Assembly (NCBI RefSeq): GCF_003970675.1
Contig: NZ_CP034562.1
Span: 1,364,001-1,428,000 of the forward strand
Length of the DNA stretch: 64,000 nucleotides
Direction of reading: 5' to 3'
DNA from: Flammeovirga pectinis
GTDB lineage: Bacteria > Bacteroidota > Bacteroidia > Cytophagales > Flammeovirgaceae
In this document: piece by piece, positions 25,532-43,571 of the stretch
Layout of the letters: each line of letters starts with the position of its first letter
Position numbering within the stretch: the stretch's first letter is position 1
The notes under the pieces: model-generated
The model's input: only the letters and a program-made list of their open reading frames with translations
Told to the model about the DNA's origin: nothing
Database searches by the model: none
Program-made: the position numbers and the translations under genes

Positions 25532-25549
25532 AATAAAACTTATTGAATC

Positions 25550-25633: not shown

Positions 25634-25653
25634 CCTATTAATTATAATATAAA

Positions 25654-25684
25654 TGTCCAGTTTATTTCAAAAAAAAACTGGACA
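25654..25684. repeat. 10-bp inverted repeat at the insertion junction
   Basis: TGTCCAGTTT (25654-25663) is mirrored by AAACTGGACA (25675-25684) with an 11-nt A-rich loop. It sits 20 bp after the hsdR relic and just before the AlbA_2-type fragment. It may be a leftover terminator or an element end. Confidence 0.6.
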
Positions 25685-25697
25685 AAAAACAGCATAA

Positions 25698-25826
25698 AGT
25701 ACCATACAAAAACTTCAAGAATCCAACCGTATAGAGTTCAAGAGAGAGCTAACCGATAGTCTTGAAAAAGCATCTTTTAGACTTTTGAAGAATGTAAATT
25801 GGACAATAATTGAAAATTTGTCTTAG
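25698..25826 (+). pseudogene. Fragment of an AlbA_2/Schlafen-type (divergent AAA-4) gene
   Basis: An open stretch of 42 codons between in-frame stops reads ..KLQESNRIEFKRELTDSLEKA.. . The ESNRIEFKRELTDSLEK signature is the N-terminal start of AlbA_2-domain (Schlafen-like, formerly AAA_4) proteins. After that, the sequence diverges and stops at 25824-25826. There is no ATG in a sensible place, so this is a remnant. The family is frequent in defence islands. Confidence 0.6.
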
Positions 25827-25882
25827 TAGCATTTATGGTTTAAATCAAAGGTTTCCGTATTTTTATAGAAAAAAACGATAGA

Positions 25883-26992: not shown

Positions 26993-26993
26993 G

Positions 26994-27593: not shown

Positions 27594-27653
27594 AGACCGT
27601 TGATTTAACGCTACATTCATTTTAATTTAGGTGGTCAAGTGTAATTTTTTAAT

Positions 27654-28418: not shown

Positions 28419-28426
28419 TCCCCCCT

Positions 28427-28684
28427 GTAGAGACGCAATGCATTGCGTCTCTACGAACCATATACAAACCATGTACGGTACAAATATTTATGATGCATGT
28501 ACAAACTATGAATAAAACACGTACGGTCAGTACAATTCATACAGGAGACGCAATGCATTGCGTCTCTACGAACCATATACAAACCATGTACGGTACAAAT
28601 ATTTATGATGCATGTAAAAACTGTGAACAAAACACGTACGGTCCGTACAATTCATACAGGAGACGCAATGCATTGCGTCTCTAC
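28427..28684. repeat. REP/BIME-like array: palindromes with 115-bp period
   Basis: Between the transposase and hsdR, the palindrome core GAGACGCAATGCATTGCGTC occurs at 28430, 28545 and 28660, exactly 115 bp apart. The first copy has the full 28-bp palindrome (28427-28454). The spacer between copies (GAACCATATACAAACCATGT..) is repeated almost unchanged. This is the genomic substrate expected for the RAYT upstream. Confidence 0.92.
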
Positions 28685-28717
28685 AGAACCACATTATAAC
28701 AAACAAAACAACCAATC

Positions 28718-31700
28718 ATGCACTTCACCGAAGCAAAACTAGAAAACTCCTTTATCCAACTACTTGAACAACAAAACTTCATCTATCAAAAAGGAGAACA
28801 AATCAATAGAGAGAATCAGGAAGAAGTTTTAATCAAGGAGGACTTAAACGCCTATTTACATCAGCGTTATCCATCGCTTACGTCTCAAGAAATCAAGAGT
28901 ATAGTAAGAGATTTGGAGAAGTTGCCTGCTTCGGATTTATACGATAGCAACAAAGCCATTATGCACAAAGTAGCGAATGGTTTTACTTTCAAAAGAGAAG
29001 ATAGAAAGGAGAAAGATCTTTATATACAGCTGATTGATTACGATAACTTATCAAACAATCTATTTAAAGCCGTCAATCAATTAGAAATTCAAGGGTATGA
29101 GAACCTTCGTATTCCAGATGTGATTGTTTATATCAATGGTTTGCCTTTGGTAGTGGTAGAATTGAAGAGTGCCGTAAGAGAAAATGCCACTATACATGAT
29201 GCTTACGTACAAATCACTACCCGTTACAGAAGAGACATTCCAGCACTTTTCAAGTACAATGCTTTTTGTGTAATCAGTGATGGAGTCAATAATAAAGCAG
29301 GTTCTTTCTTTGCTCCTTATGAGTTCTTTTATGCATGGAGAAGAACCGATGGAAGTGCTAAAAAAGAAGTAGATGGTATCGCATCCTTATATACCTTATT
29401 GGAAGGAATGTTTGCTCAAAATAGATTGGTGGATATTATTCATCACTTTATTTATATGCCAGACACTCCCAAAAGAGAAGAAAAAATTGTGTGTCGATAT
29501 CCGCAATATTATGCGGTAAATGCCTTGTTTGAGAACATCAAAAAGCATCAAAAGCCAGAAGGTGATGGTAAAGGAGGTACTTACTTTGGGGCAACAGGAT
29601 GCGGAAAAAGTTTTACAATGCTTTTCCTTACAAGAATGTTAATGAAAAGCCCTTATTTTGCCAGTCCTACCATTGTATTAATTACAGACCGCACCGATCT
29701 AGACAAACAATTGAGAGATCAGTTTGTCAATGCAAAAGAATATATAGGCGATAGTTTTGTACGAAGTGTAGAAAGCAGAACACAACTTAGAGAATACCTT
29801 CAAGGCAGAAACAGTGGAGGGGTGTTCTTAACCACCATCCATAAATTCACAGAAGATGCACAATTGCTTTCGGATAGAACCAATGTAATTTGTATTTCCG
29901 ATGAAGCCCACCGTAGCCAAACTAACCTCGATCAGAAATTAACCATCACCGAAAAAGGAGTAAAGAAATCTTTCGGTTTTGCCAAGCACTTGCACGACTC
30001 CTTACCCCACGCCACGTATGTAGGTTTTACAGGAACACCCATTGATGCCACTTTAGAAGTATTTGGAGAAGTAGTAGATGCCTACACCATGACCGAATCC
30101 GTAGAAGATGAAATTACGGTACGTATTGTTTACGAAGGCAGAGCAGCAAAGGTAATTATGGATAATAGTAAACTCAATGAAATAGAGAATTACTACGGTC
30201 AGGTTTTAGAAGAAGGAGCAAGCGAATACCATGTAGACGAAAGTAAACGTCAATCTACCCAAATGGATGTTATTTTGGGAGATGAACACCGTCTACAAGC
30301 CATCGCTAAAGATTTTATTCAACATTACGAAGGCAGAGTAGAAGAAGGTGCTTCTGTAAAAGGAAAAGCAATGTTTGTGTGCAGTAGTCGTCAGATAGCC
30401 TATGCATTTTATCAGAAAGTCATCGCAATACGACCGCAATGGGCAACCCCATTAGACTGTGCAGAAGGAGAAACACTCACTGAAAAAGAAAAGAAAGAAA
30501 ACCTCCCATTACCACGTATTAACATGGTCATGACCAGAGGAAAAGATGATCCTGAAGAATTGTACAATGCTTTAGGTAATAAACAATATAGAACCACTTT
30601 AGATCAGCAATTCAAAAATGCCAAATCCAATTTCAAAATTGCCGTTGTAGTAGATATGTGGCTCACAGGTTTTGATGTACCTTTTTTGGATACCATCTAT
30701 ATAGATAAACCTATCCAACAGCACAACCTTATTCAAACCATTTCTAGGGTTAATAGAAAGTTTGAAGGGAAAGACAAAGGATTGGTAGTAGATTATATCG
30801 GTATCAAAAAGAACATGAACTTAGCATTGGCACAGTTCAATAAAGTAGACAGCCAAAACTTCGAAGACATACAACAATCCATTACCGCCGTAAGAGATCA
30901 TTTAGACCTACTCCGTAAAGTATTTCATAAGTTCGATGCTTCCTTATATTTCACAGGAAATGAATTGGAGCAATTAGAAACCCTCAATAAAGCATCAGAA
31001 TTTGTACAACTTACAGAAGCCCTAGAAAAGCGTTTTATGAACTTGGTCAAACGCCTAAAATCTGCCTACGACATCTGTTCAGGAAGTGAAGAAATCAAAG
31101 ACAAAGAAAAAGACGAAATCCACTTCTACCTCGCTGTTCGCTCCATTGTTTTTAAACTGACCAAAGGAGAAGCTCCTGATACCGATCAGATGAACAAAAA
31201 GGTAAGAGAAATGATCGCCGAAGCCATAAAAAGTGATGGAGTAGAAGAAATCTTCAAACTAGGCGATGAAAACGATAGTAAAATAGACATTTTTGATGAA
31301 GACTATTTGGCAAAAGTCAATAAAATCAAGATGCCTAATACAAAGATCAAACTTTTACAAAAACTACTCGCCAAAGCCATAGATGATTTTAAGAAGGTCA
31401 ATAAAATAAAAGGCGTCGACTTCACAGAAAAAATGCAACAGTTGGTAAGTAAATACAACGAACGCAAAGAAGACGATGTATTGGTAGGTGAAGTATTAGA
31501 AGACTTCGCCGATGAAATCACTACCCTCATCTACGATCTTAAATCAGAAATGGGCTCATTCGCAGATATGGGTATCGACTTCGAAGAAAAAGCCTTCTAT
31601 GATATCCTCTTAGCACTAGCCCATAAATACGATTTTAATTACCCCGAAGACCAAACAAAGGCATTGGCTCAAAAGGTAAAACAGATAGTAGATGATAAAG

Positions 31701-31858
31701 CCAATTACACAGATTGGAACACAAGAGACGACATAAAAGCCGAACTCAAAGTAGCCTTAATCTTACTTCTCCACGAGTTTAAATACCCTCCTGTAGATAG
31801 AGATGAGGTGTATAAGGAGATATTTGAGCAGGCGGAGAATTTTAAGAAGTATAATTGA
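28718..31858 (+). CDS. hsdR: Type I restriction endonuclease subunit
   Basis: A 1046-residue HsdR. The N-terminal PD-(D/E)xK nuclease domain shows IPDVIVYINGLPLVVVELKS (about 130-149), with D and E-x-K. The SF2 translocase follows: Walker A-type GATGCGKSFTM near 292, DEAH-type box CISDEAHRS near 393, VGFTGTP near 434 and the later helicase motifs (SRVNRKFEGKDKGLVVDYIG). It cuts unmethylated DNA after translocation with HsdM and HsdS. It is separated from hsdS by 5 kb of cargo. A truncated copy of its start lies at 25550. Confidence 0.95.
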   Translation: MHFTEAKLENSFIQLLEQQNFIYQKGEQINRENQEEVLIKEDLNAYLHQRYPSLTSQEIKSIVRDLEKLPASDLYDSNKAIMHKVANGFTFKREDRKEKDLYIQLIDYDNLSNNLFKAVNQLEIQGYENLRIPDVIVYINGLPLVVVELKSAVRENATIHDAYVQITTRYRRDIPALFKYNAFCVISDGVNNKAGSFFAPYEFFYAWRRTDGSAKKEVDGIASLYTLLEGMFAQNRLVDIIHHFIYMPDTPKREEKIVCRYPQYYAVNALFENIKKHQKPEGDGKGGTYFGATGCGKSFTMLFLTRMLMKSPYFASPTIVLITDRTDLDKQLRDQFVNAKEYIGDSFVRSVESRTQLREYLQGRNSGGVFLTTIHKFTEDAQLLSDRTNVICISDEAHRSQTNLDQKLTITEKGVKKSFGFAKHLHDSLPHATYVGFTGTPIDATLEVFGEVVDAYTMTESVEDEITVRIVYEGRAAKVIMDNSKLNEIENYYGQVLEEGASEYHVDESKRQSTQMDVILGDEHRLQAIAKDFIQHYEGRVEEGASVKGKAMFVCSSRQIAYAFYQKVIAIRPQWATPLDCAEGETLTEKEKKENLPLPRINMVMTRGKDDPEELYNALGNKQYRTTLDQQFKNAKSNFKIAVVVDMWLTGFDVPFLDTIYIDKPIQQHNLIQTISRVNRKFEGKDKGLVVDYIGIKKNMNLALAQFNKVDSQNFEDIQQSITAVRDHLDLLRKVFHKFDASLYFTGNELEQLETLNKASEFVQLTEALEKRFMNLVKRLKSAYDICSGSEEIKDKEKDEIHFYLAVRSIVFKLTKGEAPDTDQMNKKVREMIAEAIKSDGVEEIFKLGDENDSKIDIFDEDYLAKVNKIKMPNTKIKLLQKLLAKAIDDFKKVNKIKGVDFTEKMQQLVSKYNERKEDDVLVGEVLEDFADEITTLIYDLKSEMGSFADMGIDFEEKAFYDILLALAHKYDFNYPEDQTKALAQKVKQIVDDKANYTDWNTRDDIKAELKVALILLLHEFKYPPVDRDEVYKEIFEQAENFKKYN

Positions 31859-31863
31859 TTAGT

Positions 31864-32469
31864 ATGAAAAGACCATGTGGAACTGAAATATTTCAAAGAA
31901 TATCTGAAATTATTCATTGGAATAAAGGTGATAAATTAATTAAGACAGAGGAAACTTTGGTTAAGGAAGGGCTAGATTTATTGAGTTTAGGAAAAACAAA
32001 GAAAATTGAACATTGGCGTCCTTTTATTATAAGAAAAGAAGGAGTATCCGTTTCTTCATCAAAGGTATTTGATCTATTTAGGTTATACTTTGATGATTCT
32101 CTTAAAATCTTTGCCATTGAAGGGAGTACATTATCATATTCAGTTAAGATTTTAGAAGAAAGTGGTGAGCATATCAAATTCTGGTTTGTAGCAGATCTAT
32201 TATTTTATCCATATGGTGATCCAAATATTGAGATAAAAAACTATATAAAAATATTTCACGAAAATGATTTTGAAACAATTATGGAAGTGAATCAATTTAT
32301 TTCAGATCATGAGATGTGGGACGAGTTCAAAGGAATTAGAGCTAACCTTACTTTTAGTAATGAAAAAAAATATAAAGGTATTGAACCTTGCTTTTATAAT
32401 ATAATATCTAAGTTATTAGATAATGAAATTCTGACTGAAGAGCATGTTGTGTCATGGGAGAAGTTTTAA
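31864..32469 (+). CDS. Unknown protein between hsdR and mcrB
   Basis: A 201-residue protein I do not recognise. I start it at the ATG at 31864, since the upstream TTG at 31855 overlaps the hsdR stop. It is mixed alpha/beta with one notable segment (FWFVADLLFYPYGDPNIEI) and no signal or membrane helix; no nuclease or binding motif is visible. It begins 5 nt after the hsdR stop, ends 34 nt before mcrB, and reads in the same direction, so it is likely co-transcribed with the restriction genes. A defence-associated role is inferred from location only. Confidence 0.6.
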   Translation: MKRPCGTEIFQRISEIIHWNKGDKLIKTEETLVKEGLDLLSLGKTKKIEHWRPFIIRKEGVSVSSSKVFDLFRLYFDDSLKIFAIEGSTLSYSVKILEESGEHIKFWFVADLLFYPYGDPNIEIKNYIKIFHENDFETIMEVNQFISDHEMWDEFKGIRANLTFSNEKKYKGIEPCFYNIISKLLDNEILTEEHVVSWEKF

Positions 32470-32503
32470 TATAACTTAAGTAGAAGAATAAACAACATAA
32501 TTA

Positions 32504-34627
32504 ATGGATAAAAGAATAGAATTAAAAAAAGAATTCCTTAAAGAATGGCCTATTAGTAGATTAGAAAAATTAAAACTTGAAGAATATACAAATTTAGATA
32601 AAAACTCTTTTTGTTATTGGTTAGAAGCTATAACATCTGAGGTAGGTAGTATATGGGGAGGCTCATCATATAAGTTTGGGATCTTTAAACGTAATAATAA
32701 AGAAAATGAAGTAGAAGGGCATAGAAAAACAGATGGTGAATATTCTTGGTTAGGAAAATATGGAAAAACTAAAGAAGAAGCTTTTTTAAAGCTTAAAAGC
32801 TTAGTATTGCAAATTTCTAAATCAGCAATCAATAATGATCTTGAAGAAATTGAGAAAATAGATTTAGGTAATGCATATAAATGGAAAATTGCTCATTTAT
32901 ATAGTAATTTCAATGTTTTCAATTTTTTTAAAGAGGACGCAATAAAGTTTATATTAAAGGAGAAAGGTTATAAAGGTGTATTTTCATATGCTAATGCTTA
33001 TATGTTTCTGAAAACCTTGAATACAGAAAATGAAGAATTTTATACTTTTTCACAAAAACTTTGGAACTTATATGAGAAAGAACCCGAAGCTAATGTGAGC
33101 CTAAATCTTAGTAAGGGAAATAAGAGAAATGATTTAAATCAAATCTTATACGGACCTCCCGGTACAGGTAAAACATACAATACTATCAATAAAGCCTTAG
33201 AAATCATAGAAGGTAACGAGCTATCAGAAGAAGATAGAAATAATGGTTCAGCTAAGAAAAAATTTAATGAATATGTAGAAAGCGGTCAAGTTGTATTTAC
33301 AACTTTTCATCAAAGTATGAGTTATGAAGATTTTGTGGAAGGGATAAAACCAAAAACAAATGATGATGACCAAATTTATTATGAAACTGAAGATGGTATT
33401 TTTAAAAAAATCTGTTCATCTGCCAAAAAAATAGAAGTTATAGAATCTTCAGATATTGATTTTGATAAGGTTGATTATTATAAAATGTCTATTGGTGGTA
33501 AGAATAGAAAGATAATGCATGATTGGAATATCAATAATGAAACGGTGAGTTTAGGTTATGGAGGTTCTAGTTCTTTAAAAGAATTTGAAGGGATTGATGA
33601 TTGGAGATCTTTTAATAAAGCATTTACTGAAAAGAATCCAGAGAGAATAGAAGAATCGAAGTTTCATTCTAATGCTGCTTTCCGATTTCTTAAAATGAAA
33701 ATTGGTGATATCGTTATTATTACTTTAGGTAACCTTATTATAGATGCAATTGGTGTCATTGTAGGTGACTATTTCTATGATGATACAACTGAGATTGATC
33801 ATGTACATTACAGAAAGGTAAAATGGTTAGCTACTGATTTAGGTGTTGAACCTTCTAAGTTTATAAATAAGAAAATATCTCAACAAACTATCTATGAGTT
33901 TTATAGGGAAGATATAAAAATAGATACCTTCAAAGATACTTTTAGTAAAAAGGAGAAAGTTCAACCCAAAAACCATGTTTTAATTATTGATGAAATTAAT
34001 AGAGGTAATGTATCAGCTATCTTTGGAGAGCAGATAACCTTATTAGAAGAAAGTAAGCGATTAGGTAATAAGGAAGAACTTAAAGTGAAATTGCCATATA
34101 GTAAAGAACCGTTTGGAGTTCCAAATAATTTACACATCATAGGTACTATGAATACAGCTGATAGATCTGTTGAAGCTTTAGATACTGCATTAAGAAGACG
34201 TTTTGTATTTAAGGAAATGATGCCAAAGCCTGATCTATTGGAATACAAAGAAGGGATAGGCATTAATCTACAATTAGTACTTGAAACAATTAATGAAAGG
34301 ATAAAGGTATTATTGGATAGAGATCATCAAATAGGTCATAGTTACTTCCTTAAGGTAAACACTTTTGAAGAAGTGAAAAAAGCTTTTGCCACTGAAATTA
34401 TTCCCCTTTTACAAGAGTACTTTTATGGAGATTATATCAAAATAGCCTTAATTATTGGTTTAGGCTTCTTTGAAGAACCAAAAACAATTCGCCCAAATTT
34501 ATTTGCTAAGATTCAAGGAGCGGAAGGATTTGATTATACCAATCAAACTACTTATGAATTGCTTGATCCTTTTCAAATGAGTGATGATGATTTTAGTAAA
34601 GCGATAGAACTATTACTTGAAAAATAG
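32504..34627 (+). CDS. mcrB: McrB-type GTPase of modification-dependent restriction, with extra inserted domain
   Basis: A 707-residue AAA+ protein. Walker A LYGPPGTGKTY is near residue 216, Walker B VLIIDEINRGNVSAIFGE near residue 491, and the sensor/arginine-finger stretch GTMNTADRSVEALDTAL then RRRF near 546-566: the McrB hallmark set. The ~215-residue N-terminal region (ITSEVGSIWGGSSYKFGIF) would be the DNA-recognition part. The Walker motifs lie ~275 residues apart, far more than in ordinary McrB. The extra part (about 320-470: MSIGGKNRKIMHDW, IGDIVIITLGNLIIDAIGVI, HVHYRKVKWLATD) looks like a PUA/EVE-like fold. It acts with McrC, which starts at the next base, to cut DNA with modified bases. 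Confidence 0.9.
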   Translation: MDKRIELKKEFLKEWPISRLEKLKLEEYTNLDKNSFCYWLEAITSEVGSIWGGSSYKFGIFKRNNKENEVEGHRKTDGEYSWLGKYGKTKEEAFLKLKSLVLQISKSAINNDLEEIEKIDLGNAYKWKIAHLYSNFNVFNFFKEDAIKFILKEKGYKGVFSYANAYMFLKTLNTENEEFYTFSQKLWNLYEKEPEANVSLNLSKGNKRNDLNQILYGPPGTGKTYNTINKALEIIEGNELSEEDRNNGSAKKKFNEYVESGQVVFTTFHQSMSYEDFVEGIKPKTNDDDQIYYETEDGIFKKICSSAKKIEVIESSDIDFDKVDYYKMSIGGKNRKIMHDWNINNETVSLGYGGSSSLKEFEGIDDWRSFNKAFTEKNPERIEESKFHSNAAFRFLKMKIGDIVIITLGNLIIDAIGVIVGDYFYDDTTEIDHVHYRKVKWLATDLGVEPSKFINKKISQQTIYEFYREDIKIDTFKDTFSKKEKVQPKNHVLIIDEINRGNVSAIFGEQITLLEESKRLGNKEELKVKLPYSKEPFGVPNNLHIIGTMNTADRSVEALDTALRRRFVFKEMMPKPDLLEYKEGIGINLQLVLETINERIKVLLDRDHQIGHSYFLKVNTFEEVKKAFATEIIPLLQEYFYGDYIKIALIIGLGFFEEPKTIRPNLFAKIQGAEGFDYTNQTTYELLDPFQMSDDDFSKAIELLLEK

Positions 34628-35845
34628 ATGAAAAAGGTAAGGTTCACATTATTTGAGCATGAGACTCTAAAAGTAGGTCAAGAAAAGGATAGTGTTGTAT
34701 TTACCATGCAACATCTTCAAGCTTTGGAGAAGTTTTATGGAGATGAATGCCCTTATTTTTCTTTAATCAATAAAGGAATCAAATGTAATGAACATGTAGG
34801 AGTTATTCATGTAGGGAATATCATTATTGAAGTTTTACCTAAAGCAGATAGAAGTAATTCTGAAAATAAGTGGAGAGAATTACTTATTAGAATGCTCAAA
34901 ATGGTAAGTTCCTTTAATGTATCTGCTCCAACATCATCATTTCTATCTTTACAGAGTAATTATATCTTGGATTTATATTTCGAACTTTACCTTAAGGAGA
35001 TAGATCTATTATTACATAAAGGATTAATCAAGAAATATAGAAGGGTAGATAATAACCAAAAAGCATTAAAGGGAAGGTTACAATTATCAAAGCACTTACA
35101 AAAGAATATCATACATAAAGAACGTTTTTATGTCAATCATACTGTCTATGATCAAGAACATCAAATACATCAAATCCTTTTACAAGCTCTTAAGTGTATT
35201 GAATTATTAAATACGAACCCTAAATTAAACGTCACATCAGTAATTTTTAGATTCCCTGAGTTAAGTGATATTCATGTTTCAAAATATACTTTTGAAAAAC
35301 TAAATTTAGGAAGGAAGTTCAAACATTACGAAACAGCTTTATCAATAGCAAAACTCATTTTGTTGAATTTTCATCCAGACCTTAGCAATGGTCAAAGTGA
35401 TGTATTAGCATTGATGTTTAATATGAACAACCTTTGGGAAAAGTTTGTCTTTTTTTCACTTCGACAAAGATTGAAGAATTGTACTGTAAAAGAACAAGGC
35501 AGTAAGTTGTTTTGGGAAGGAGGTAGTAGTCATCAATCTTTTATGAAACCTGATATTATTATTGAAAAGCCAATTGATGAAGGTATAAAGACTTTCGTTT
35601 TGGATACAAAATGGAAAAACCTTTATGGTGGTAGTCCAAGTGCTCAAGATCTTCGACAACTTTATGTTTATCATCAGTTCTATGATGCTGAAAAAGTAGC
35701 ATTAGTATATCCAGGAGAAAAAGATACCATTGAAGGCCAATTTCAAAAAGAAGGAAGGGAATGTGCAGTAATACAAATTAGTTATAATGATAATTTGGAG
35801 ACTTTTATAGATAATATTGTTGAGGATATTGAGGGGTGGTTGTAA
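34628..35845 (+). CDS. mcrC: McrC-type nuclease subunit
   Basis: A 405-residue McrC. The N-terminal beta domain contacts the McrB ring. The PD-(D/E)xK nuclease is in the last third: FMKPDIIIEKP (Asp, near 309), FVLDTKWKNLYGG (D-x-K, near 325) and AQDLRQLYVYHQF. The start ATG follows the mcrB stop directly (TAGATG), giving coupled translation. McrC stimulates GTP hydrolysis and performs the double-strand cut. Confidence 0.93.
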   Translation: MKKVRFTLFEHETLKVGQEKDSVVFTMQHLQALEKFYGDECPYFSLINKGIKCNEHVGVIHVGNIIIEVLPKADRSNSENKWRELLIRMLKMVSSFNVSAPTSSFLSLQSNYILDLYFELYLKEIDLLLHKGLIKKYRRVDNNQKALKGRLQLSKHLQKNIIHKERFYVNHTVYDQEHQIHQILLQALKCIELLNTNPKLNVTSVIFRFPELSDIHVSKYTFEKLNLGRKFKHYETALSIAKLILLNFHPDLSNGQSDVLALMFNMNNLWEKFVFFSLRQRLKNCTVKEQGSKLFWEGGSSHQSFMKPDIIIEKPIDEGIKTFVLDTKWKNLYGGSPSAQDLRQLYVYHQFYDAEKVALVYPGEKDTIEGQFQKEGRECAVIQISYNDNLETFIDNIVEDIEGWL

Positions 35846-35900
35846 ATTTATATTCCAACTAAAAAGATGTTTTCACCAATGTTATCCCCATAAAACAGAA

Positions 35901-35935
35901 AAACCCTCCTTACTGTACCGTAAAGAGGGTTTTTT
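35901..35935 (-). terminator. Terminator at the left edge of the ssrA element, probable original ssrA terminator
   Basis: AAACCCTC (35901-35908) pairs with GAGGGTTT (35925-35932), with partial inner pairing. Read on the minus strand it follows the att copy of the tmRNA 3' end and ends in a T-run, which is how a tmRNA terminator would sit. It also serves mcrC on the + strand. Confidence 0.8.
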
Positions 35936-35956
35936 GTGGAGTCGGAGGGAGTCGAA
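35936..35956. repeat. Left attachment site (21-bp direct repeat of the tmRNA 3' end)
   Basis: The sequence GTGGAGTCGGAGGGAGTCGA plus one A is identical to 43168-43188, which lies inside the 3' end of ssrA. The CCA end of the tmRNA is not fully kept here (one base is lost), and the rest of the gene is absent, so this is an att relic and not a second tmRNA. Confidence 0.9.
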
Positions 35957-36060
35957 GCTATGGTAATTGATAGTATCCTAAATTATAAAAAACCTACCTA
36001 AACATATTAAAAACAAATATTTAAACTTTTGGTAGTTTACCAAAGTCTATCAAAATATAA

Positions 36061-36087
36061 ATAAATCGCACCCATAAACGCACCCAT
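36061..36087. repeat. Left copy of 27-bp element-end direct repeat
   Basis: ATAAATCGCACCCATAAACG.. at 36061-36087 is identical to 43097-43123, in the same orientation. It contains the 9-mer CGCACCCAT twice, 12 bp apart. It lies 50 bp upstream of the integrase start; a TATCTTTG -7 element follows at 36102-36109, so an integrase bound here could block its own promoter. Confidence 0.85.
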
Positions 36088-36136
36088 AAACTATAATTGA
36101 TTATCTTTGATAAGTAAGAGTAAAATCAAGTAACAA

Positions 36137-37354
36137 ATGGCAACTATTACATTATTTATCAAGAATAAAACAGCAAAGCAATCTAGTGTTAGTGCTGTAT
36201 TAAGGGATGGTAGTACTAGAATAGTATTATCAAGTGGTGTGAAAATTCCTCCTAAACATTGGAACACAAAGAAACATCATATTTTTGGTGTAAATCCCAA
36301 TGCACAAGAATTAAACGCTCAATTAAAAGTATTCAAGGATAACGCTTTTAATATTTACAATGAAGCTAAGAACAAAGGAATACAGGCAACGGGTGAATAC
36401 ATTAGAGAGAAGTTAAAACCTAAAGAGATTGCTACGACTACAGATAAAGCCTTTTGGGGTATCTTTGATAATTACTTATCAATTAAAGAGCGTAAACTTT
36501 CTATTTCTTCAATTAAGAAAATAAAAAGTCTTAAAGTGCATTTAGAGGGGTTTGAGAAAAAGCGAAAAGTGATTTTTGATATTAATGAAATTGATCATGT
36601 ATTATTAGAATCATTACAAGAATACCTTTATCAAGATGCAAAGCTAAATAAACAAACTACAGCAAAGTACTTAGGCTTATTCAAGACCTTTCTAAATTGG
36701 TGTAAAGAACGTAAACTAACCACTAATGAAGATCATAAGTTATTTAAGCTAACACACCAACCCGACACATTAAAGCCAGTATTGATAGATTTAGACCTAA
36801 ATAAGATACGATCTACAGTATTAGAACATGAGTATTTACAAAATGCTAGACAATTGTTGTTGTTATCTACATTAACGGGTTTAAGGTATAGTGATTATAG
36901 TAAAATTAATGAGTCACACATACGAGTAAGTAATGATGGTAGTAAGTACCTTACTATTCGCCAAACTAAAACTAATGAAGCAATAGAAGTACCTCTTACT
37001 TTAGAAGCTGAAAAGATAATACAAGAATTATTAGAGGGTAAGATTCATAGTATTACAAATCAAAGTTTGAATAAGTATGTTAAAGAAGTCTGTAAGTTGG
37101 CAGGGATTGACGAACTATTTGAAGTACATGAATTCAAAGGAAACTTTACAACGTCTAAGAAAGTTCCTAAATACGAGCTTATAACCACTCATACGGGACG
37201 TAGAACCTTTGCAACAAACTTATTACTCAAAGGAGTACCAACTAATGTTGTAATGGAATTTACGGGGCATAAAGATGAAAGGAGTTTTGCAAAGTATGTG
37301 AATATTCCAAAGGAAAAAACAATGGAGATGGTTAGAAAAGCATTAATGAACTAA
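36137..37354 (+). CDS. Tyrosine site-specific integrase
   Basis: A 405-residue phage-type integrase of the Bacteroidota group with an N-terminal arm-binding domain (VSAVLRDGSTRIVLSSGVKI), a SAM-like core-binding domain (~105-210) and a catalytic domain. The catalytic set is visible: Arg in LTGLRYSDYSKI (about 252), Lys in IRQTKTNEAIEVPL, HTGRR (about 352-356), GHKD (about 377) and the nucleophile Tyr in FAKYVNI (about 386). It is the first gene inside the left att site and would recombine the ssrA 3' end. A Bacteroidota -7 element precedes it, next to the 27-bp repeat. Confidence 0.93.
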   Translation: MATITLFIKNKTAKQSSVSAVLRDGSTRIVLSSGVKIPPKHWNTKKHHIFGVNPNAQELNAQLKVFKDNAFNIYNEAKNKGIQATGEYIREKLKPKEIATTTDKAFWGIFDNYLSIKERKLSISSIKKIKSLKVHLEGFEKKRKVIFDINEIDHVLLESLQEYLYQDAKLNKQTTAKYLGLFKTFLNWCKERKLTTNEDHKLFKLTHQPDTLKPVLIDLDLNKIRSTVLEHEYLQNARQLLLLSTLTGLRYSDYSKINESHIRVSNDGSKYLTIRQTKTNEAIEVPLTLEAEKIIQELLEGKIHSITNQSLNKYVKEVCKLAGIDELFEVHEFKGNFTTSKKVPKYELITTHTGRRTFATNLLLKGVPTNVVMEFTGHKDERSFAKYVNIPKEKTMEMVRKALMN

Positions 37355-37378
37355 ACATCAAATAACTAACATTTTATT

Positions 37379-39238
37379 ATGAATCAAGAATTAATAGAGA
37401 GAGAAATATTTTTATTCGATAGCTTTATTGATAATTCTATTAATCATTTTGATGAATATTTTAGATATTTCAAAAAGTATGAAAAAGACTATTCATTAGA
37501 TGAGATTTATCAAAAACTATATTCAATATTAGATCATTATGATCATGAATTAAGGAGCTTTTTTAAGCAAAAGGAAATAGAGGGTTATAGTATTTGTAAT
37601 AGTATTGAAGATAAACAAGAAAGAAATAATTGTAATGAAACTGTTTCAAAAAGAGATATTAGAACTTGGTTTTTTTCAATTCCTTTTAGAATTTCTAGGT
37701 ATAATGGTTCTGTAACTATACAATTTATTGATGATGTGAAGTCATCACTCAATTTTGTTTTTAAAATAGTCAAAGGTATTGATGAGAAAGAGTTACTTTA
37801 TTTTATTACTGATGATAAAAAATTGTGGTTGAAAAAGGAATTTGAGAACCGAATTAATAATATTCCATCTAAATTAAATGATATTAGTGACAAATATTTT
37901 ACTGAAGATTTATTTAAAAATGAAGTTGATTTATTAGTACAAGAAAAATTAAAAACTCTAAAGGAAAATTTCTCAACAAAGAATATTCTACCATCGGAAT
38001 TAGATAGTTATTTATCAACATATTTTCTCAATAAGAAAATTGCTGAAACTTGGTTAAGTGTTTTAAAGAAAGTAATCCAGAATGAATATAAAATTGATAA
38101 TCAAGATGAGATAGAGGGGAAAACAACTAATTATCAAGAATTAATAATATTAGATGATTCTAATGGTGATATTTTTAGGTTAGTAGAAAATACTAAGTTG
38201 ATTGAAAAAAACTTGAATAAATTATTTGAAAGTGAAGTTGGTGAAAAGTTAGGCAATAGTATTTTTGATAAAGAAAATAAAGATAAATGGTTGATTAATA
38301 AATTAAACTCATTTAAAATTTATAGTATTAATCATAAGAATGAAAGTGTTTTTATAGCAATTAATTGGTGCTTATCACAATTTGATGATTGTTCAGTAAG
38401 GTATGAACATGAAATTCGACAATTAACAAAAATCACAACAAATAGTGTAGCTGAAAATTTAAACGTTCCTTTAGGGAGTTATGTTTCTAGAATACCAATA
38501 ACAACAGATAAGTCAATACTTAAAGATCGTTTCATTAACCTCTATGCTCAAAGATGGTGTGAAACATTAATAAGAAATATGATACAGATTAATCCGAGTT
38601 TAGATGAAGATGTGTTGAGTAGTGAATTATCTAAAATTGACCAATTTATAGAAAAAGCTAAACAAATAGATTTTTTAAAAGCTATTAATGTTAATCAAAT
38701 TGATATGAAAAGTGAGTATGAGGAGTTTATTAGAATGGATAAAGATTTTTACTCAAACCCAAATCATGATAAAATTTATTCACAAGTTTCGGGAAGTTTT
38801 CAGGCTCAAATTTATGGAAAGTATGTACTTTTTAGAAAATGGTTAGAAGAGAGGTTGAAATCTAAAAAAGTTGATTGTGTTAAGTCATCAAAGGAAAATA
38901 AAGAAACTTACTTTTTAGCTGTGTTATTAAACAATTCAAAGTATAGAAGTATTAGAGAATACTTTAAGACAAATTATAAAAATGTTGCAGGTGTTAAAGT
39001 GCTTACCATACTTAGGGCATTAATGGAAATGAATATCATTAGTGAAAAGATTAGAACATCTAATAAGACTCAATTACATAAAGAAATATCATCTTTTTTA
39101 GATGGTAAAGTTGTAGGTAGAAAAGGATTAACGGGTTCAACTTTTACTAAGATAATAATAGAAGAACATCTAGATCCAAATGATAAAGTAAGAACTGATG
39201 TAGATGACTTAAAACTTTACCTGAAAACACTTCTATAA
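37379..39238 (+). CDS. Large cytoplasmic protein of unknown function in the element
   Basis: A 619-residue Lys/Asp/Asn-rich protein that I do not recognise. It is mostly alpha-helical, without signal or membrane helices, and has no Walker or nuclease motif I can see. Its last ~100 residues (YFLAVLLNNSKYRSIREYF, then LRALMEMNIIS and GRKGLTGSTFTKIIIEE) look like a small helical DNA- or protein-binding domain. It begins 24 nt after the integrase stop and is probably co-transcribed with it. Roles such as regulation, mobilisation or defence are all open. Confidence 0.6.
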   Translation: MNQELIEREIFLFDSFIDNSINHFDEYFRYFKKYEKDYSLDEIYQKLYSILDHYDHELRSFFKQKEIEGYSICNSIEDKQERNNCNETVSKRDIRTWFFSIPFRISRYNGSVTIQFIDDVKSSLNFVFKIVKGIDEKELLYFITDDKKLWLKKEFENRINNIPSKLNDISDKYFTEDLFKNEVDLLVQEKLKTLKENFSTKNILPSELDSYLSTYFLNKKIAETWLSVLKKVIQNEYKIDNQDEIEGKTTNYQELIILDDSNGDIFRLVENTKLIEKNLNKLFESEVGEKLGNSIFDKENKDKWLINKLNSFKIYSINHKNESVFIAINWCLSQFDDCSVRYEHEIRQLTKITTNSVAENLNVPLGSYVSRIPITTDKSILKDRFINLYAQRWCETLIRNMIQINPSLDEDVLSSELSKIDQFIEKAKQIDFLKAINVNQIDMKSEYEEFIRMDKDFYSNPNHDKIYSQVSGSFQAQIYGKYVLFRKWLEERLKSKKVDCVKSSKENKETYFLAVLLNNSKYRSIREYFKTNYKNVAGVKVLTILRALMEMNIISEKIRTSNKTQLHKEISSFLDGKVVGRKGLTGSTFTKIIIEEHLDPNDKVRTDVDDLKLYLKTLL

Positions 39239-39281
39239 CTTCCAATTTTTACATTTTGGAAGTATTGGAACTTTTGGAAGT
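39238..39281. promoter_or_regulatory. Clustered TTGGAAGT sites before the excisionase gene, candidate operator
   Basis: ACTTCCAA at 39238-39245 is inverted as TTGGAAGT at 39256-39263, and a direct copy TTGGAAGT recurs at 39274-39281. They sit within 50 bp upstream of the HTH gene at 39290, typical of autoregulated or excisionase binding sites. Confidence 0.5.
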
Positions 39282-39289
39282 TCGTCAAG

Positions 39290-39622
39290 ATGAACCTTTG
39301 TATCATGATAGTAAATAAAGATACAAGGGTTTCTTCTTTTAATAACCCTTTTGAATTAATTGATAGAAGATTGATTCAAATCGAAGAAGTACTTGCTTTA
39401 ATGTTAGAAGAGCAAAAAGCAAGAAAAGTAAAGCCAGTAAACCCTAACAAAAGGTTTACAAGAAAAGAAGTGAAGGAATTATATTCTATCTCTTATGCAA
39501 CAATCCATAACCTAATTAACAAAGGGTTGTTAGAATCTCAAAAGATTGGAAGGAAAACAGTATTTACCCAAGGAGCATTAAATAATTGCTTTGATAAAAA
39601 GAAAGGAGGTGCTTATGTGTAA
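39290..39622 (+). CDS. Excisionase-like helix-turn-helix protein
   Basis: A 110-residue protein whose C-terminal ~50 residues form a MerR/excisionase-type winged HTH: RFTRKEVKELYSISYATIHN, then LINKGLLESQKIGRKTVF. Such proteins bind near att sites and direct excision, or regulate element genes. Starts at 39290 and 39305 are both possible. The following gene starts inside its last codons. Confidence 0.8.
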   Translation: MNLCIMIVNKDTRVSSFNNPFELIDRRLIQIEEVLALMLEEQKARKVKPVNPNKRFTRKEVKELYSISYATIHNLINKGLLESQKIGRKTVFTQGALNNCFDKKKGGAYV

Positions 39623-39899
39623 GGACATAAACAACTCCCAATCAAGTAACGATGGTAAAGTTAATGAATTAAGACGTTATTATCTATACCTTAAAACGAA
39701 TACCTCTACTAATTGTATGGCTTCTCATGATTTAGAGATACCTGAAAAACATCTAACTAGGTATAAAAGACTATTAGAAAAGGAGGGTAAACTAAGAGTT
39801 GTAAAACCTGATTACTGTGAAAGAACAGGACATCTAGCAGGTTATTTAACTACCGATGAAAATAAGTTTCCTGCAAATGATCAATTATCACTATTTTGA
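39615..39899 (+). CDS. Small element protein, helical DNA-binding candidate
   Basis: A 94-residue protein started at the ATG at 39615. AAAGGAGGT at 39602-39610 is a near-perfect Shine-Dalgarno, rare in this phylum, so the start is well set; the longer TTG frame from 39591 is less likely. The sequence LRRYYLYLKTNTSTNCMASHD.. then IPEKHLTRYKRLLEKEGKLR resembles a winged-helix 'end-of-repeat' region of small Bacteroidota element proteins. It ends PANDQLSLF, close to a clamp-binding motif (QLSLF). Confidence 0.65.
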   Translation: MCKDINNSQSSNDGKVNELRRYYLYLKTNTSTNCMASHDLEIPEKHLTRYKRLLEKEGKLRVVKPDYCERTGHLAGYLTTDENKFPANDQLSLF

Positions 39900-40834
39900 T
39901 GATAGGGATTGATTATGTAAGAAGCTATACCACTAACCCACCAACTACTTTAATAGTATTATCTAGGGGAGGTGGTTGCTTTTTATACAAAGGGTTAACA
40001 TTCTTACCTCAATACAAGACAGAAAACCGTATTTCATTTTCTTGTATGTACGATAATTTTAGAATCTCATTAGATACTGATAGGTTATATTTTCAAGGAA
40101 GTTTGCATAAATTCTGTAAAGGTGAAAACTATTCTCAATTTACTTTTTTCGAATTAATAGAAGCTATAAAAAGGATTGATGAAAAATTTGAAGGTAGTTT
40201 TTCTAATTCAAAAATAACTCTATTAGAGTACGGTATAAATTTAAAATTAGATTACAACCCTGCCAATGAATACTCATCTTGGGAAATGTATTCTTCTAAA
40301 GAGGTTACTAAAATGATTCATCATGGAAAAGTTTATGGAAGTAAGTTCTATCTATCCCAACATACAATAAAGGGTTATGATAAAACTTTTGAATCAAAAC
40401 TATCAGATCAAAATGTATTGAGGATTGAATGTATGGTTAAAGGTGCTTATTTACAATCAACGAAAAGGTTACATTCGATAAGATGTATTACTGATTTGTT
40501 GAGTCTTAATAATTTACAGTTACTAAATGAAGATTTAAAAATGAAGTATAAAAAAATAATACGTGATACTATTAAATATGAAGATTTAGATAAATTAAGT
40601 GTAACAGAATTAAAAATTATTTCTGCAATGCGAGATTCTGTAGTAGAGAAATTACTTAAGAAAAAATATAAAGAGACTTATAAAAAAAATAGAAGGACTT
40701 ACCTTAAAGTAGTAAAAGAATCTCAAAAGACTAATGAAGGTATTTATCCTTTGTTACAAAGTGAAGAATTGGAATCAGTTAAAAGAGAAAAAACGGAAGA
40801 ATCGGACTCTATAAAAAAGAGATGGCAGAAATAA
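39899..40834 (+). CDS. Candidate replication initiation protein (phage gpII/X-like)
   Basis: A 311-residue protein beginning at an ATG that overlaps the previous stop (TGATG). LYFQGSLHKFCKGENYSQF near residue 65 resembles the 'GSxxKFLxGxN' part of filamentous-phage gene II/X replication proteins, and IKGYDKTFESKLSDQNVLRIE near residue 160 matches their 'iYDKxxE ... lRfE' segment. The last ~80 residues are basic. The family makes the nick that starts rolling-circle replication. No HUH motif is obvious, so the assignment is tentative. The iteron-like repeats at 40799-40910 overlap its 3' end and fit an origin. Confidence 0.5.
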   Translation: MIGIDYVRSYTTNPPTTLIVLSRGGGCFLYKGLTFLPQYKTENRISFSCMYDNFRISLDTDRLYFQGSLHKFCKGENYSQFTFFELIEAIKRIDEKFEGSFSNSKITLLEYGINLKLDYNPANEYSSWEMYSSKEVTKMIHHGKVYGSKFYLSQHTIKGYDKTFESKLSDQNVLRIECMVKGAYLQSTKRLHSIRCITDLLSLNNLQLLNEDLKMKYKKIIRDTIKYEDLDKLSVTELKIISAMRDSVVEKLLKKKYKETYKKNRRTYLKVVKESQKTNEGIYPLLQSEELESVKREKTEESDSIKKRWQK

Positions 40835-40910
40835 TATTATGTATTCTACTTTTTAGACGTTTCAGAAGAATCCGACACGCTAAAAAGAAAGAATCGGACG
40901 AATCGGACTC
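40799..40910. repeat. Iteron-like GAATCGGAC repeats, candidate origin
   Basis: GAATCSGAC occurs at 40799, 40868, 40891 and 40900; the last two are directly adjacent. Several are followed by a similar A-rich tail (TCTATAAAAAAG, ACGCTAAAAAG, TCCTAAAAAG). They start at the end of the Rep-like gene and extend into the 247-bp gap before 41082. Confidence 0.65.
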
Positions 40911-41043
40911 CTAAAAAGAACAATTAGATAAAATTCTCCTCGTATTCGAGATTATAAAAAAGGGTTATTTTTCCCGTTTTGGAATCTATAAAAAAGAGGG
41001 GTATTACAAACTTGTTGTATAGTATGAATTAGGGGTATTATAT

Positions 41044-41051
41044 TACCTTTG
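41044..41051 (+). promoter_or_regulatory. Bacteroidota -7 element upstream of the 41082 gene
   Basis: TACCTTTG matches TAnnTTTG and ends 30 nt before the ATG. The nearest TTG pair at 41012-41017 is somewhat far for a -33 element. Confidence 0.4.
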
Positions 41052-41081
41052 TTTAAATGTCAATAAAAATTTTCTAGTATC

Positions 41082-42359
41082 ATGTTAAAGCAATTGTTTT
41101 TTATAATCTTACTTAATTTTCTTTCTTTCAGTTTATATTCTCAATCAAATTATGATAGCTTGAATAACTTTAAAATAGAAACAAACTTAATTGGTGAAAC
41201 TCTTATTATTAAAGATTTAAAAACTGATGTAACGGGTTTCTATTTAGATCCAATGAAGCCATACGATAAGTCGAAAAATATTTATCTTGAGAATGGTAAT
41301 TTATTGTCAAATGGTAAAGAGCTTTCAAAAAAAAGATTTATCGTATTAGATCGAATTGAATCAAATAATAAGAAAAGGTATCAAGGAGACTACTATTTAA
41401 AATTAAAAGATTCAAATACTAATACTAATGTTTACTACTTAATTACTAGTAATACACTTGGTTTAAGTGGTGATAATGTTCCTTTTATTGTAGAAGGATA
41501 TTTAGAGAAAATGAAATCAATATGGATTGATACAACTTTAGTTTTAATTTCAGATCCATTTATTATTGACAATAATAAAATACTAGTAAAAGGTAAAGAA
41601 GAAATTGTAAGATGTGATTTTAATGACCTTACAAAAGATTCAAAAATATCTATAGTGAATTTTGTTATTCCAAGTTATTATTATAAACCTAGTAATAACA
41701 CTTTTGGAACACCTAAAATAATTTCTAATAAGTTAGAAGTTTTAATATCAAATAGGAATCAGGAATTAACAGTTCCAATAACCTTTATTGAACGTAAGAA
41801 TAATTTTTATTCTGAGAGTGCTTTACAATCGAAGATGAAAATTGATAAAGAAATCGAAGAATTAAAGAATAAAGATAAAGGAGACTTATCAGGTATTGAT
41901 TTGTCAAATTTTAAAGAGTTAGATTTTTTTAAAACGATTAGTTCTTCTGATGGAGGTATCTACTTGTCAAAGTTAAATATTAGAAATAGTAAAGAATCAG
42001 AAATTTCATTTGCAATCCTAGATGATAAGTTTTTAATTCTTGGGAAACTTAAAAATTCATGTGTAAAAGAGTATTCTAAATGTCATTTTAATTATAAATC
42101 ATTTTTTGATCAACCTGATAACATAGTAGAGGGAATAGATTATGATGTATTTTCATCTTATAATAAATTTAATTGTAAAGGTGATATTACTTTAAAAGTA
42201 ACAGATAAAATGGTTGAAAAGATATTGAAAAAAACAATAGAAGCAATATGGATTGAAGATTCATCAGGGCAAGGACAAACATTTTCTTTAAAAGAATCGG
42301 ATAAAGAAATTTTGGAGTATTTTGCTCAGTTGTATATTTTTAAAAAGGGTTATAAATAA
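41082..42359 (+). CDS. Secreted protein of unknown function carried by the element
   Basis: A 425-residue protein with a clean signal peptide (LFFIILLNFLSFSLYSQS). The mature part is beta-rich and Asn/Lys/Ser-rich with no motif I recognise. A helical linker EIEELKNKDKGDLSGID lies near residue 260, and four cysteines lie in the last ~120 residues (SCVKEYSKC, FNCKG). It has its own -7 promoter element. As a stand-alone exported cargo of an integrated element, it may affect the cell surface, but that is inference only. Confidence 0.6.
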   Translation: MLKQLFFIILLNFLSFSLYSQSNYDSLNNFKIETNLIGETLIIKDLKTDVTGFYLDPMKPYDKSKNIYLENGNLLSNGKELSKKRFIVLDRIESNNKKRYQGDYYLKLKDSNTNTNVYYLITSNTLGLSGDNVPFIVEGYLEKMKSIWIDTTLVLISDPFIIDNNKILVKGKEEIVRCDFNDLTKDSKISIVNFVIPSYYYKPSNNTFGTPKIISNKLEVLISNRNQELTVPITFIERKNNFYSESALQSKMKIDKEIEELKNKDKGDLSGIDLSNFKELDFFKTISSSDGGIYLSKLNIRNSKESEISFAILDDKFLILGKLKNSCVKEYSKCHFNYKSFFDQPDNIVEGIDYDVFSSYNKFNCKGDITLKVTDKMVEKILKKTIEAIWIEDSSGQGQTFSLKESDKEILEYFAQLYIFKKGYK

Positions 42360-42379
42360 TCTAAAATAGATATGAATAG

Positions 42380-42634
42380 ATGGCATTAGGAAAAAAAACA
42401 GGTGGCAGGGTAAAAGGTTCTGTAAACCGATCAACAAAGAATATTAGGTTTATCTTAGGTGATTTATTAGAAGAATCTTTAAATGGCTTACAAGAAGATT
42501 TAAAAGCATTAGAACCAAAAGAAAGGTTAGAGGTTATGATCAAACTTTTACCTTATGTTTCACCTAAGATAGATTCAGTTAAATACAATGACCCTGATAG
42601 TGCTTTTAATATTGAAGAATGGGATAATACTTAA
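42380..42634 (+). CDS. Small basic protein resembling phage terminase-small-subunit-like family
   Basis: An 84-residue protein, starting GKKTGGRVKGSVNRSTKNIR, then a helical pair ending RLEVMIKLLPYVSPKIDSVK. The 'GGRxKGxxNKxTK' start and 'xxERLxxxxkLLPYVxPK' helix are seen in small phage-associated proteins next to terminase genes. No terminase large subunit is present here, so it is either a relic or a helper of an unrelated system. Function open. Confidence 0.6.
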   Translation: MALGKKTGGRVKGSVNRSTKNIRFILGDLLEESLNGLQEDLKALEPKERLEVMIKLLPYVSPKIDSVKYNDPDSAFNIEEWDNT

Positions 42635-42635
42635 T

Positions 42636-43061
42636 TCATAAATCGAAGTTTAATGCTTTAATGAAATTTTCATCTACCATTGGTTCATCTTTAAAATTTA
42701 TATCAGAAATTTCAAAAATAAATTTATTAATTGACGCTTTAATAAACTCAAGATTGTTAAGAACTTCATTCTGTGTTAAGTTATTTATTTCATAATAGCA
42801 CTGGACAGAAAAAGAGTATTGATTTCTTATTGAAATGGATAAGGATTGTTTCTTAATTTCTGAGAAATTAGAAGTGTATTCTTCGAAATTTTTTAAATTA
42901 TGTGGAGTATGCTCGTAATCAAAAATAGAAAGGATATCTCTATACGAAAACTCGAAAGAACCATTTATTCCAGAATCCTTCAAAAAAAGAATTTTATTTC
43001 TATCAATACCTAATTTAAATCTTTCTTTTAATCTATTTATTTTTTCTTCTTTATTAAGCAT
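42636..43061 (-). CDS. Unknown minus-strand protein at the right end of the element
   Basis: A 141-residue acidic-to-neutral protein with no recognised motif, no signal peptide and no membrane segment. It is the only element gene on the minus strand and sits one base from the end of the 42380 gene, head to head with the 27-bp repeat. It could be an immunity, repressor or decoy gene; there is no direct evidence. Confidence 0.5.
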   Translation of the reverse strand: MLNKEEKINRLKERFKLGIDRNKILFLKDSGINGSFEFSYRDILSIFDYEHTPHNLKNFEEYTSNFSEIKKQSLSISIRNQYSFSVQCYYEINNLTQNEVLNNLEFIKASINKFIFEISDINFKDEPMVDENFIKALNFDL

Positions 43062-43096
43062 AAAGGAAATTATTTTAAATATTTGAGAGTGTCAAT

Positions 43097-43123
43097 ATAA
43101 ATCGCACCCATAAACGCACCCAT
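43097..43123. repeat. Right copy of 27-bp element-end direct repeat
   Basis: Identical to 36061-36087, in the same direction, 45 bp inside the right att site. Its place at both ends fits integrase arm-type or excisionase binding sites. Confidence 0.85.
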
Positions 43124-43131
43124 TAAAAACG

Positions 43132-43165
43132 AAAACCCACTCTACATGATTATAGAGTGGGTTTT
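43132..43165 (-). terminator. Element-borne ssrA terminator
   Basis: A 13-bp perfect stem, AAAACCCACTCTA (43132-43144) with TAGAGTGGGTTTT (43153-43165), starts exactly at the base after the encoded CCA of ssrA on the minus strand and is followed by T-rich sequence. It lies inside the element, so it replaces the host terminator at 35901. Confidence 0.9.
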
Positions 43166-43571
43166 TGGTGGAGTCGGAGGGAGTCGAACCCTCGTCCAGA
43201 GAAGGACAAAGACTAGCCTTCTACATGCTTAGTTTTACTTAAATTTTCGAGAAAAGCCAAGGCGAAAACAACCTCAAACTTAACCTTATCTGCTTTAGCT
43301 TCGCTATCAACCCACAGCAGGTATCAAGCTAGATCGATGGTTTCGGCACTCTCGGATCTTCGCCCAAAGATCAAGGCAAAGGAGAATGTAGCTCGGAAAC
43401 GCCGTTAGGTCAGTTCCATTTAAGCCCAATGTCTACAACCCTAAGGGAGACTAGGCAGCCATAGCAAATGAATTGCCAACTGAGTTTTGGAACTATCTTT
43501 TAAGGCTCTCATCCCATGAGCCTGCATGCTTATACTAGCAAAATCACAGCCTGTCAAAACCAGTCGACCCC
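43166..43571 (-). ncRNA. ssrA: Transfer-messenger RNA (tmRNA)
   Basis: Read on the minus strand the RNA starts GGGGUCGACUGGUUUUGACA at 43571 and ends with a T-arm-like GGGUUCGACUCCC and CGACUCCACCA at 43166. The 7-bp acceptor stem GGGGUCG/CGACUCC closes with one G-U pair. An internal reading frame GGC AAT TCA TTT GCT ATG GCT GCC TAG follows CAGUU, giving a tag of GNSFAMAA, similar in form to other tags ending in A-A. tmRNA rescues stalled ribosomes with SmpB. The 3' end serves as integration site for the element on its left. Confidence 0.96.
43168..43188. repeat. Right attachment site inside the ssrA 3' end
   Basis: This 21-bp segment is the same as 35936-35956 and covers the T-arm to acceptor part of tmRNA. 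Integration here keeps ssrA intact. Confidence 0.9.

Follow-up and report, generated by a model that had tools for sequence, protein, structure and literature searches.

A 7.2-kb element at the 3′ end of ssrA in Flammeovirga pectinis probably supplies the tmRNA gene with a replacement terminator

How can an element insert at the 3′ end of the transfer-messenger RNA (tmRNA) gene and leave that gene both complete and provided with a terminator? The question is raised by a 64,000-nucleotide stretch of the Flammeovirga pectinis genome (contig NZ_CP034562.1, positions 1,364,001 to 1,428,000; hereafter the window, in whose numbering all coordinates are given), in which an element of 7,232 bp adjoins ssrA, the tmRNA gene. 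Sequence comparison gives us high confidence in the following account: an integrase drove insertion at the ssrA 3′ end, ssrA and its terminator were regenerated, the previous terminator was displaced, and the site had probably been used before.

The element spans 35936-43167, its length being measured between the first bases of the left and right copies of a 21-bp direct repeat, GTGGAGTCGGAGGGAGTCGAA. Repeat and pattern searches place the left attachment (att) site, a copy of the ssrA 3′ end, at 35936-35956 and the right att site, the core within ssrA, at 43168-43188. A 20-bp pattern taken from the repeat matched the window twice, both times exactly, with up to three mismatches allowed and none expected from 100 shuffles; the whole 6.68-Mb genome held no further match at the same tolerance. 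The ssrA gene itself (43166-43571, minus strand; ARAGORN and Rfam) has CCA as its 3′ end and matches the Rfam model from position 1 to 374 of 374 (105.7 bits, gathering threshold 47). As in Islander-type islands, one end is marked by the intact gene and the other by a displaced 3′ fragment that is oriented alike, a tyrosine integrase with Pfam matches above the cut-off lies between them, and a relative has the site uninterrupted. The start of the integrase gene, which points toward ssrA, is 180 bp from the left att copy. An earlier note on this DNA had proposed a tmRNA-end repeat bounding about 7.2 kb, an integrase beside the left att and an ssrA left intact, and these claims are borne out by the exact repeat pair, the Pfam-backed integrase and the full-length Rfam match.

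The tag peptide reported by ARAGORN is odd and hinted at a damaged ssrA, an idea rejected on the normal-looking tag (...GNSFAMAA*) that is nonetheless encoded; the tag GNSFAMAA and a similar mis-call recur in G007, and the other seven same-genus relatives carry GNNSFAMAA. The three bases after the core are CCA at the window's ssrA and CAA at the displaced copy, and CTA (six) or CAA (two) in eight same-genus relatives. On this comparison, the encoded CCA at the tmRNA end is supplied by the element. An encoded CCA also occurs outside the family, for example in L005.

Both ends carry a hairpin of 15 pairs followed by a T-run, on the minus strand: one directly after the ssrA CCA (43132-43165) and one directly after the left att, outside the element (35899-35934). 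Their folding energies are similar (-20.4 and -21.1 kcal/mol, respectively), and none of 200 shuffles was as stable in either case. Terminator scanning returned three hits in the window against a shuffle mean of 2.1 (s.d. 1.5); the bare pattern is not rare in AT-rich DNA of this kind, so it is place and stability that distinguish these two hairpins. Because strand exchange falls within the core, the ssrA-proximal terminator must have come from the element and the left one from the pre-insertion site. The pre-insertion origin of the DNA 3′ of the left att is supported by G006, a same-genus genome of a different species, whose element-free ssrA runs directly into DNA 96% identical to window 35847-35956 (110 bp), with the left hairpin directly after the gene. 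The check proposed in the earlier note, an ssrA without the element followed at once by the left flank (35901-35935), thereby comes out as predicted. Its further claim of a 13-bp-stem terminator abutting the CCA and brought by the element stands in location and origin and is corrected in stem length to 15 bp.

The hairpin family itself bears on function. Seventeen proximal and displaced hairpins (14 distinct) were aligned from flanks chosen for alignability, leaving aside the displaced hairpin of G012, the same-family flanks of G009, G011, G013 and G014, and all flanks outside the family. In this alignment 93.9% of cells are paired, 7 of 14 pairs have changed on both sides and three are invariant; the covariation score was reached by none of 500 shuffles, a control that relatedness may inflate, and sliding the pair partners lowers every measure. 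Covariation and T-runs together argue for a functional RNA terminator.

Inside the element, CGCACCCATAAACGCACCCAT, a pair of direct repeats spaced by 12 bp, is present at both the integrase end (36061-36090) and the ssrA end (43097-43126), as found by repeat search. These pairs, which the earlier note had overlooked, look like arm-type sites of the integrase. Across 20 ssrA 3′ flanks, pairs with at least 8 of 9 matches were found in eight, all with a spacing of 12 (10-14 allowed); dinucleotide shuffles did as well in 0-2 of 300 trials for seven of these flanks and in 9 of 300 for L042. A repeat pair also follows the ssrA terminator of G045, from another family, with no att copy in the stretches searched.

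In the mechanism we propose, the tyrosine integrase would recombine the 21-bp core on a circular form of the element with the identical 21 bp at the ssrA 3′ end. The att region of the circle would contain, in order, the ssrA 3′ end including CCA, the intrinsic terminator and the 12-bp-spaced arm-type pair; integration would restore ssrA in full, give it a terminator of about the same predicted strength and move the earlier 3′ fragment and its terminator 7.2 kb off. Probably the site was used before, the previous terminator resembling the ssrA-proximal end of an older, eroded element. We infer that the integrase binds the repeat pairs and acts here, that the element is excised, that termination takes place in the cell and that the host benefits.

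Among 291 genomes of the order, nine, counting that of the window, have a relative of the integrase (E ≤ 1e-60). The ssrA comparison covers seven ssrA elements in six genomes, the window included, with an att copy beside the integrase downstream of ssrA in the five others; it omits G037 (L046), where ARAGORN found no tmRNA. Mapped elements measure 43.8 kb (G005), 26.7 kb (G007), 30.6 kb (G008) and 12.0 kb (G012), and G003 has two in tandem, of 11.8 and 39.6 kb (G003a and G003b). The ssrA side of all seven elements with this integrase family (7/7) comprises core, hairpin and repeat pair, and the far end integrase start, repeat pair, att copy and another hairpin. A hairpin follows the ssrA-side core of every further element, and a displaced hairpin follows the att copy at the integrase end of all six; G003b's own hairpin is the one that G003a displaced. 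Five distinct pair sequences occur among the seven elements, one of them common to G005, G007 and G003b, and the pair is identical at both ends of each element except in G008 (1 difference) and G012 (4 of 22). Relative to the core, 2-3 of 20 bases are changed in the att copies of G005, G007, G008 and G003b. Elsewhere, the integrase of G004 is on a different contig from ssrA, no ssrA lies near the integrase hits of G070 and G121 or near a second hit in G007, and no att copy was found in the stretches examined of G001, G002, G004 and G006. We note that the integrases of G005, G007 and G003b (L072, L074 and L076) are 98.5-99% identical despite element sizes of 43.8, 26.7 and 39.6 kb, which suggests recent movement of these elements with changing cargo.

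Eight genes lie inside the window element. The integrase (36137-37354, plus strand, 405 amino acids (aa)) has the domains Arm-DNA-bind_5, Phage_int_SAM_5 and Phage_integrase (Pfam PF00589, PF13102 and PF17293), and a genome-contig scan with it gave three distant named relatives, in Algoriphagus, Winogradskyella and Robiginitalea (28-33%). It is followed on the same strand by orf2 (37379-39238, 619 aa), which has no family assigned and no relatives (E ≤ 1e-5) among the 394 other genomes sampled across the phylum; orf3 (39290-39622, 110 aa), an HTH_17 or excisionase-like DNA-binding protein by Pfam and PHROGs; orf4 (39615-39899, about 94 aa), an open reading frame (ORF); and orf5 (39899-40834, 311 aa), which has no Pfam family and carries conserved GSLH and YDK motifs in alignment. 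In known systems an integrase and an excisionase-like helix-turn-helix (HTH) protein suffice, with host factors, for integration and excision. Invariant GSLH, EXGXN, YDK and RXE residues are common to orf5 and four distant relatives; they resemble those of replication initiators of small phages and plasmids, a likeness that the libraries searched did not confirm, and orf5 is possibly such an initiator. An orf5 alignment profile gave one match among solved structures (E 0.43), taken as chance; single-sequence structure predictions were poor for orf5 and orf2 (mean predicted local distance difference test scores, pLDDT, of 41.6 and 35.3), and no orf5 matches were found in plasmids. Further along the plus strand lie orf6 (41082-42359, 425 aa), likely cargo, with an N-terminus that resembles a signal peptide by eye, and orf7 (42380-42634, 84 aa), which weakly matches the phage family phrog_15261 (E 2.5e-4). 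The last ORF, orf8 (42636-43061, minus strand, 141 aa), shares the direction of ssrA and is the first gene after it.

What kind of element these genes make up has one rival answer of some weight. A defective prophage or phage satellite, moved by helper packaging, would agree with the small size, the HTH/excisionase-like protein, the weak phage match of orf7 and a distant match of orf5 in one uncultured phage record (27%, E 1e-3). We consider this unlikely: no capsid, terminase or portal family reached accepted scores, the best being a terminase small subunit family against orf3 (E 0.008), probably through the HTH, and pattern-based scans of viral contigs, sensitive to close relatives only, returned no relatives of the integrase, orf2 or orf5. 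As the earlier note had said, relaxase, conjugation and capsid genes are not recognisable; none of these families appeared at accepted scores among the eight element proteins in Pfam, PHROGs and NCBIfam. More specifically, these scans gave neither the relaxase and type IV secretion genes of an integrative and conjugative element (ICE) or an integrative and mobilizable element, with orf2 and orf5, which match no family, as possible relaxases of an unfamiliar type, nor the capsid, portal and terminase genes of a prophage, for which only sub-significant PHROGs matches arose. Transfer from cell to cell through a helper phage or plasmid is possible.

Whether the displaced terminator is the ancestral one is a separate question. 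The earlier note was right that the terminator it placed at 35901-35935, outside the left att, had been displaced by the insertion, and its term 'original-looking' is not supported, since a repeat pair typical of another element follows. This sequence, GGGGATAACATTGGTGAAAACAT on the minus strand (35867-35889), comes after the window's left terminator and is a decayed form of the arm-type pair GGGGATAACATTGGGGATAACAT, which is intact in G005, G006, G007 and the distal att of G003a and bounds the G005 and G007 elements on either side. The G003 terminator that was displaced by the ssrA-adjoining element is followed by an intact GGGGATAACATTGGGGATAACAT pair and forms the proximal end of the second element, and 2.2 kb from ssrA in G006 there remains a C-terminal integrase fragment of 64 residues, 95% identical to the G005 integrase. 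Because of the decayed pair, the G003 tandem and the G006 remnant, we ascribe the window's previous terminator to an older, now eroded element, its most likely source, and elements at the ssrA end of the window were probably replaced serially.

Against this stands the view that 35899-35934 is the true ancestral ssrA terminator and that only one element ever used the site. It can draw on the hairpin directly after ssrA in G006 and on alignable hairpins, of neither the window nor the G003a type, after ssrA in 7 of 9 same-genus genomes. We hold it to be quite improbable: the 12-bp-spaced pair after the hairpin matches both ends of complete elements in G005, G007 and G003, the equivalent arrangement in G003 can be shown to be the proximal end of another element, and G006 retains the integrase remnant. 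The stricter idea that the left terminator is necessarily ancestral was rejected on the repeat pair and that remnant. Going beyond serial replacement, we offer only tentatively, and as somewhat less probable than its negation, a lineage-wide fixed cassette of core, covarying terminator and 12-bp-spaced arm pair, in which each arrival would swap the terminator, tmRNA termination in the genus would by now be wholly supplied by elements, living or eroded, with no ancestral terminator left beside ssrA, and the window element would also have turned an ssrA 3′ end that needed its CCA added into one with an encoded CCA.

Left of the element, a defence cluster (20856-35845) with type I restriction genes (HsdM, HsdS and REase_I), OLD/AbiL-like ATPase genes and an McrBC pair sits between the end of the older ssrA element and the conserved chromosome, recognisable again from near 17441 by its similarity to G006. 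An ORF at 20002-20559 with an HTH_38 domain (Pfam), transposase-like by eye, also occurs in the G006 ssrA island at about 90% DNA identity, beside the integrase remnant. Within the cluster, an 18-bp repeat (27969-28168; 11.1 copies, 97% matches) runs in frame through a 254-aa ORF without a Pfam match at 1e-3 and encodes repeated IASNQD; just downstream is a 115-bp tandem repeat of 2.3 copies (28430-28691).

How general the arrangement is was assessed in a scan for RNA genes with a displaced 3′ fragment, covering 140 loci, some overlapping. These included 80 extra loci around PF13102 integrases, hand-picked among the best matches listed (ORFs of at least 362 aa, some entries skipped); scanned loci were at most 20 kb, hence large elements are under-sampled. 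The hairpin threshold, -9 kcal/mol or better, was reached by 9 of 600 random windows versus 49 of the 59 rows for RNA genes. Both ends could be placed for ten elements, which fill 11 rows since one of them has two fragments; fragment matches are partial in G070 (3 mismatches of 20) and in the tRNA-Leu element (4 of 20). Together with four others at ssrA, from the comparison above, these ten make up the sample. A proximal hairpin is present in 8 of the 10, the weakest at -9.3 kcal/mol (G173), and a displaced-end hairpin in 9. The eight are at ssrA (window, G003a and G012), tRNA-Val, tRNA-Asn, tRNA-Thr (two) and tRNA-Leu; a proximal terminator is not universal among the mapped elements. Close to the window's is the G173 tRNA-Thr element, of 7,370 bp with a 24-bp repeat and a 12-bp-spaced pair at both ends, whose genes include an integrase, an HTH-like protein and an orf5 relative. 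Near another orf5 relative, in G060, a CRISPR-like array (CRISPR, clustered regularly interspaced short palindromic repeats) with a 61-bp period and 66 copies begins a few kilobases away (L083:2541 onward).

Observations in two further genomes were noted. In G595 (L098 and L099), a single contig holds three exact copies of the ssrA 3′ core at intervals of 18.0 and 21.5 kb, and ssrA has no clear terminator next to it. In G027 (L086:5320-5403 and 14500-14650), two tRNA-like 3′ fragments 9.2 kb apart are each followed, by eye, by a hairpin with a T-run, the left hairpin then by a repeat pair of 12-bp spacing; in locus L086 no tRNA gene was called by ARAGORN. From G027, serial insertion may occur at tRNA genes too.

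The notion that the hairpin is mainly an att-site DNA element, such as a directionality-factor binding site, with termination incidental, accords with its position between core and repeat pair, in the presumed att region, of 7 of 7 ssrA elements with this integrase family and with a loop-proximal sequence, TTACRGTANNGTAA, common to many hairpins, yet is very improbable given compensatory stem changes at 7 of 14 pairs, the pattern that an RNA hairpin should show, the T-run that follows, and the other hairpins found at the same place in tRNA-targeting relatives.

Several observations weigh against our account of insertion, regenerated terminator and earlier use of the site. On the weakest measure of covariation, further pair types, 21 of 500 shuffles did as well as the alignment. 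The window-type terminator and repeat pair occur at ssrA in none of 8 same-genus relatives, so movement of the element within its own species is only presumed, and the empty site comes from another species. In the window's left region, no integrase remnant was recognisable and no additional core copy was found, and the distal end of the older element is not recognisable in the window. Finally, 2 of the 10 mapped elements lack a good proximal hairpin, namely G070 (tRNA-Arg, -6.9 kcal/mol) and G595 (ssrA); no integrase of this family was found in the G595 loci.

Comparable systems are known. For enterobacterial ssrA elements, Williams is said to have reported in 2003 that a conserved sequence at each att site apparently serves as the ssrA terminator. 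The window element carries such a terminator, intrinsic, directly after the core on the element side and different from the displaced one. CP4-57 of Escherichia coli K-12 resembles it in its insertion at the ssrA 3′ end, regenerated ssrA and terminator on the element side: a hairpin of -23.0 kcal/mol with a T-run lies between ssrA and intA. The hairpin of CP4-57 is about 45 nt after ssrA, whereas that of the window element abuts the CCA, and by the same rule no hairpin was found in the 91 nt after the displaced CP4-57 fragment. The integrase of CP4-57 adjoins ssrA and is co-directional with it; the window integrase, in contrast, is at the far end and points toward ssrA.

Other islands share parts of the arrangement. 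Dehalococcoides ssrA islands are described as having 20-bp repeats of the ssrA 3′ end and tandem occupancy of one ssrA, both as seen here, and the passages concerned make no mention of carried terminators (PMC3146451). Islander-type islands in tRNA and tmRNA genes likewise have a regenerated RNA gene and a displaced fragment at their ends, and enrichment as a target is reported to be higher for the tmRNA gene than for each of the tRNA isoacceptor types; terminators are untreated there, 'terminat' occurring nowhere in the main text of the source (PMC4383910). ICEKp1 and similar ICEs at tRNA-Asn also displace the terminator of the RNA gene that they enter, which ends up at their far end, but ICEKp1 strips the tRNA of its terminator and drives the integrase gene from the tRNA promoter, whereas the window element gives ssrA a replacement (PMC13023037). 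A mirror image of ICEKp1, in which a carried terminator would be tied to a far-end integrase, was rejected: a hairpin of -9 kcal/mol or better is present in 19 of 23 rows in which an RNA gene is followed, no more than 1 kb on, by the start of a co-directional integrase gene of the family. These rows are not independent (L060 equals L080, and three loci give 2-3 RNA genes each), and the far ends of nearly all of their elements are unmapped. Among the papers listed in a literature search, no title or abstract opening dealt with carried ssrA terminators in Bacteroidota.

Preserving the tmRNA while replacing its terminator, which the earlier note had implied to be new, is done likewise by related ssrA and tRNA elements and by E. 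coli CP4-57. The window element is a well-supported example of already known behaviour and no new element type. For annotation it carries a warning, in that a displaced terminator is not necessarily ancestral. The contrast with ICEKp1 (PMC13023037) poses a testable question: which elements keep themselves insulated from the RNA gene, and which exploit it? For the tmRNA gene of these bacteria, repeated use without visible damage goes with elements that bring the gene end, the terminator and, here, CCA.

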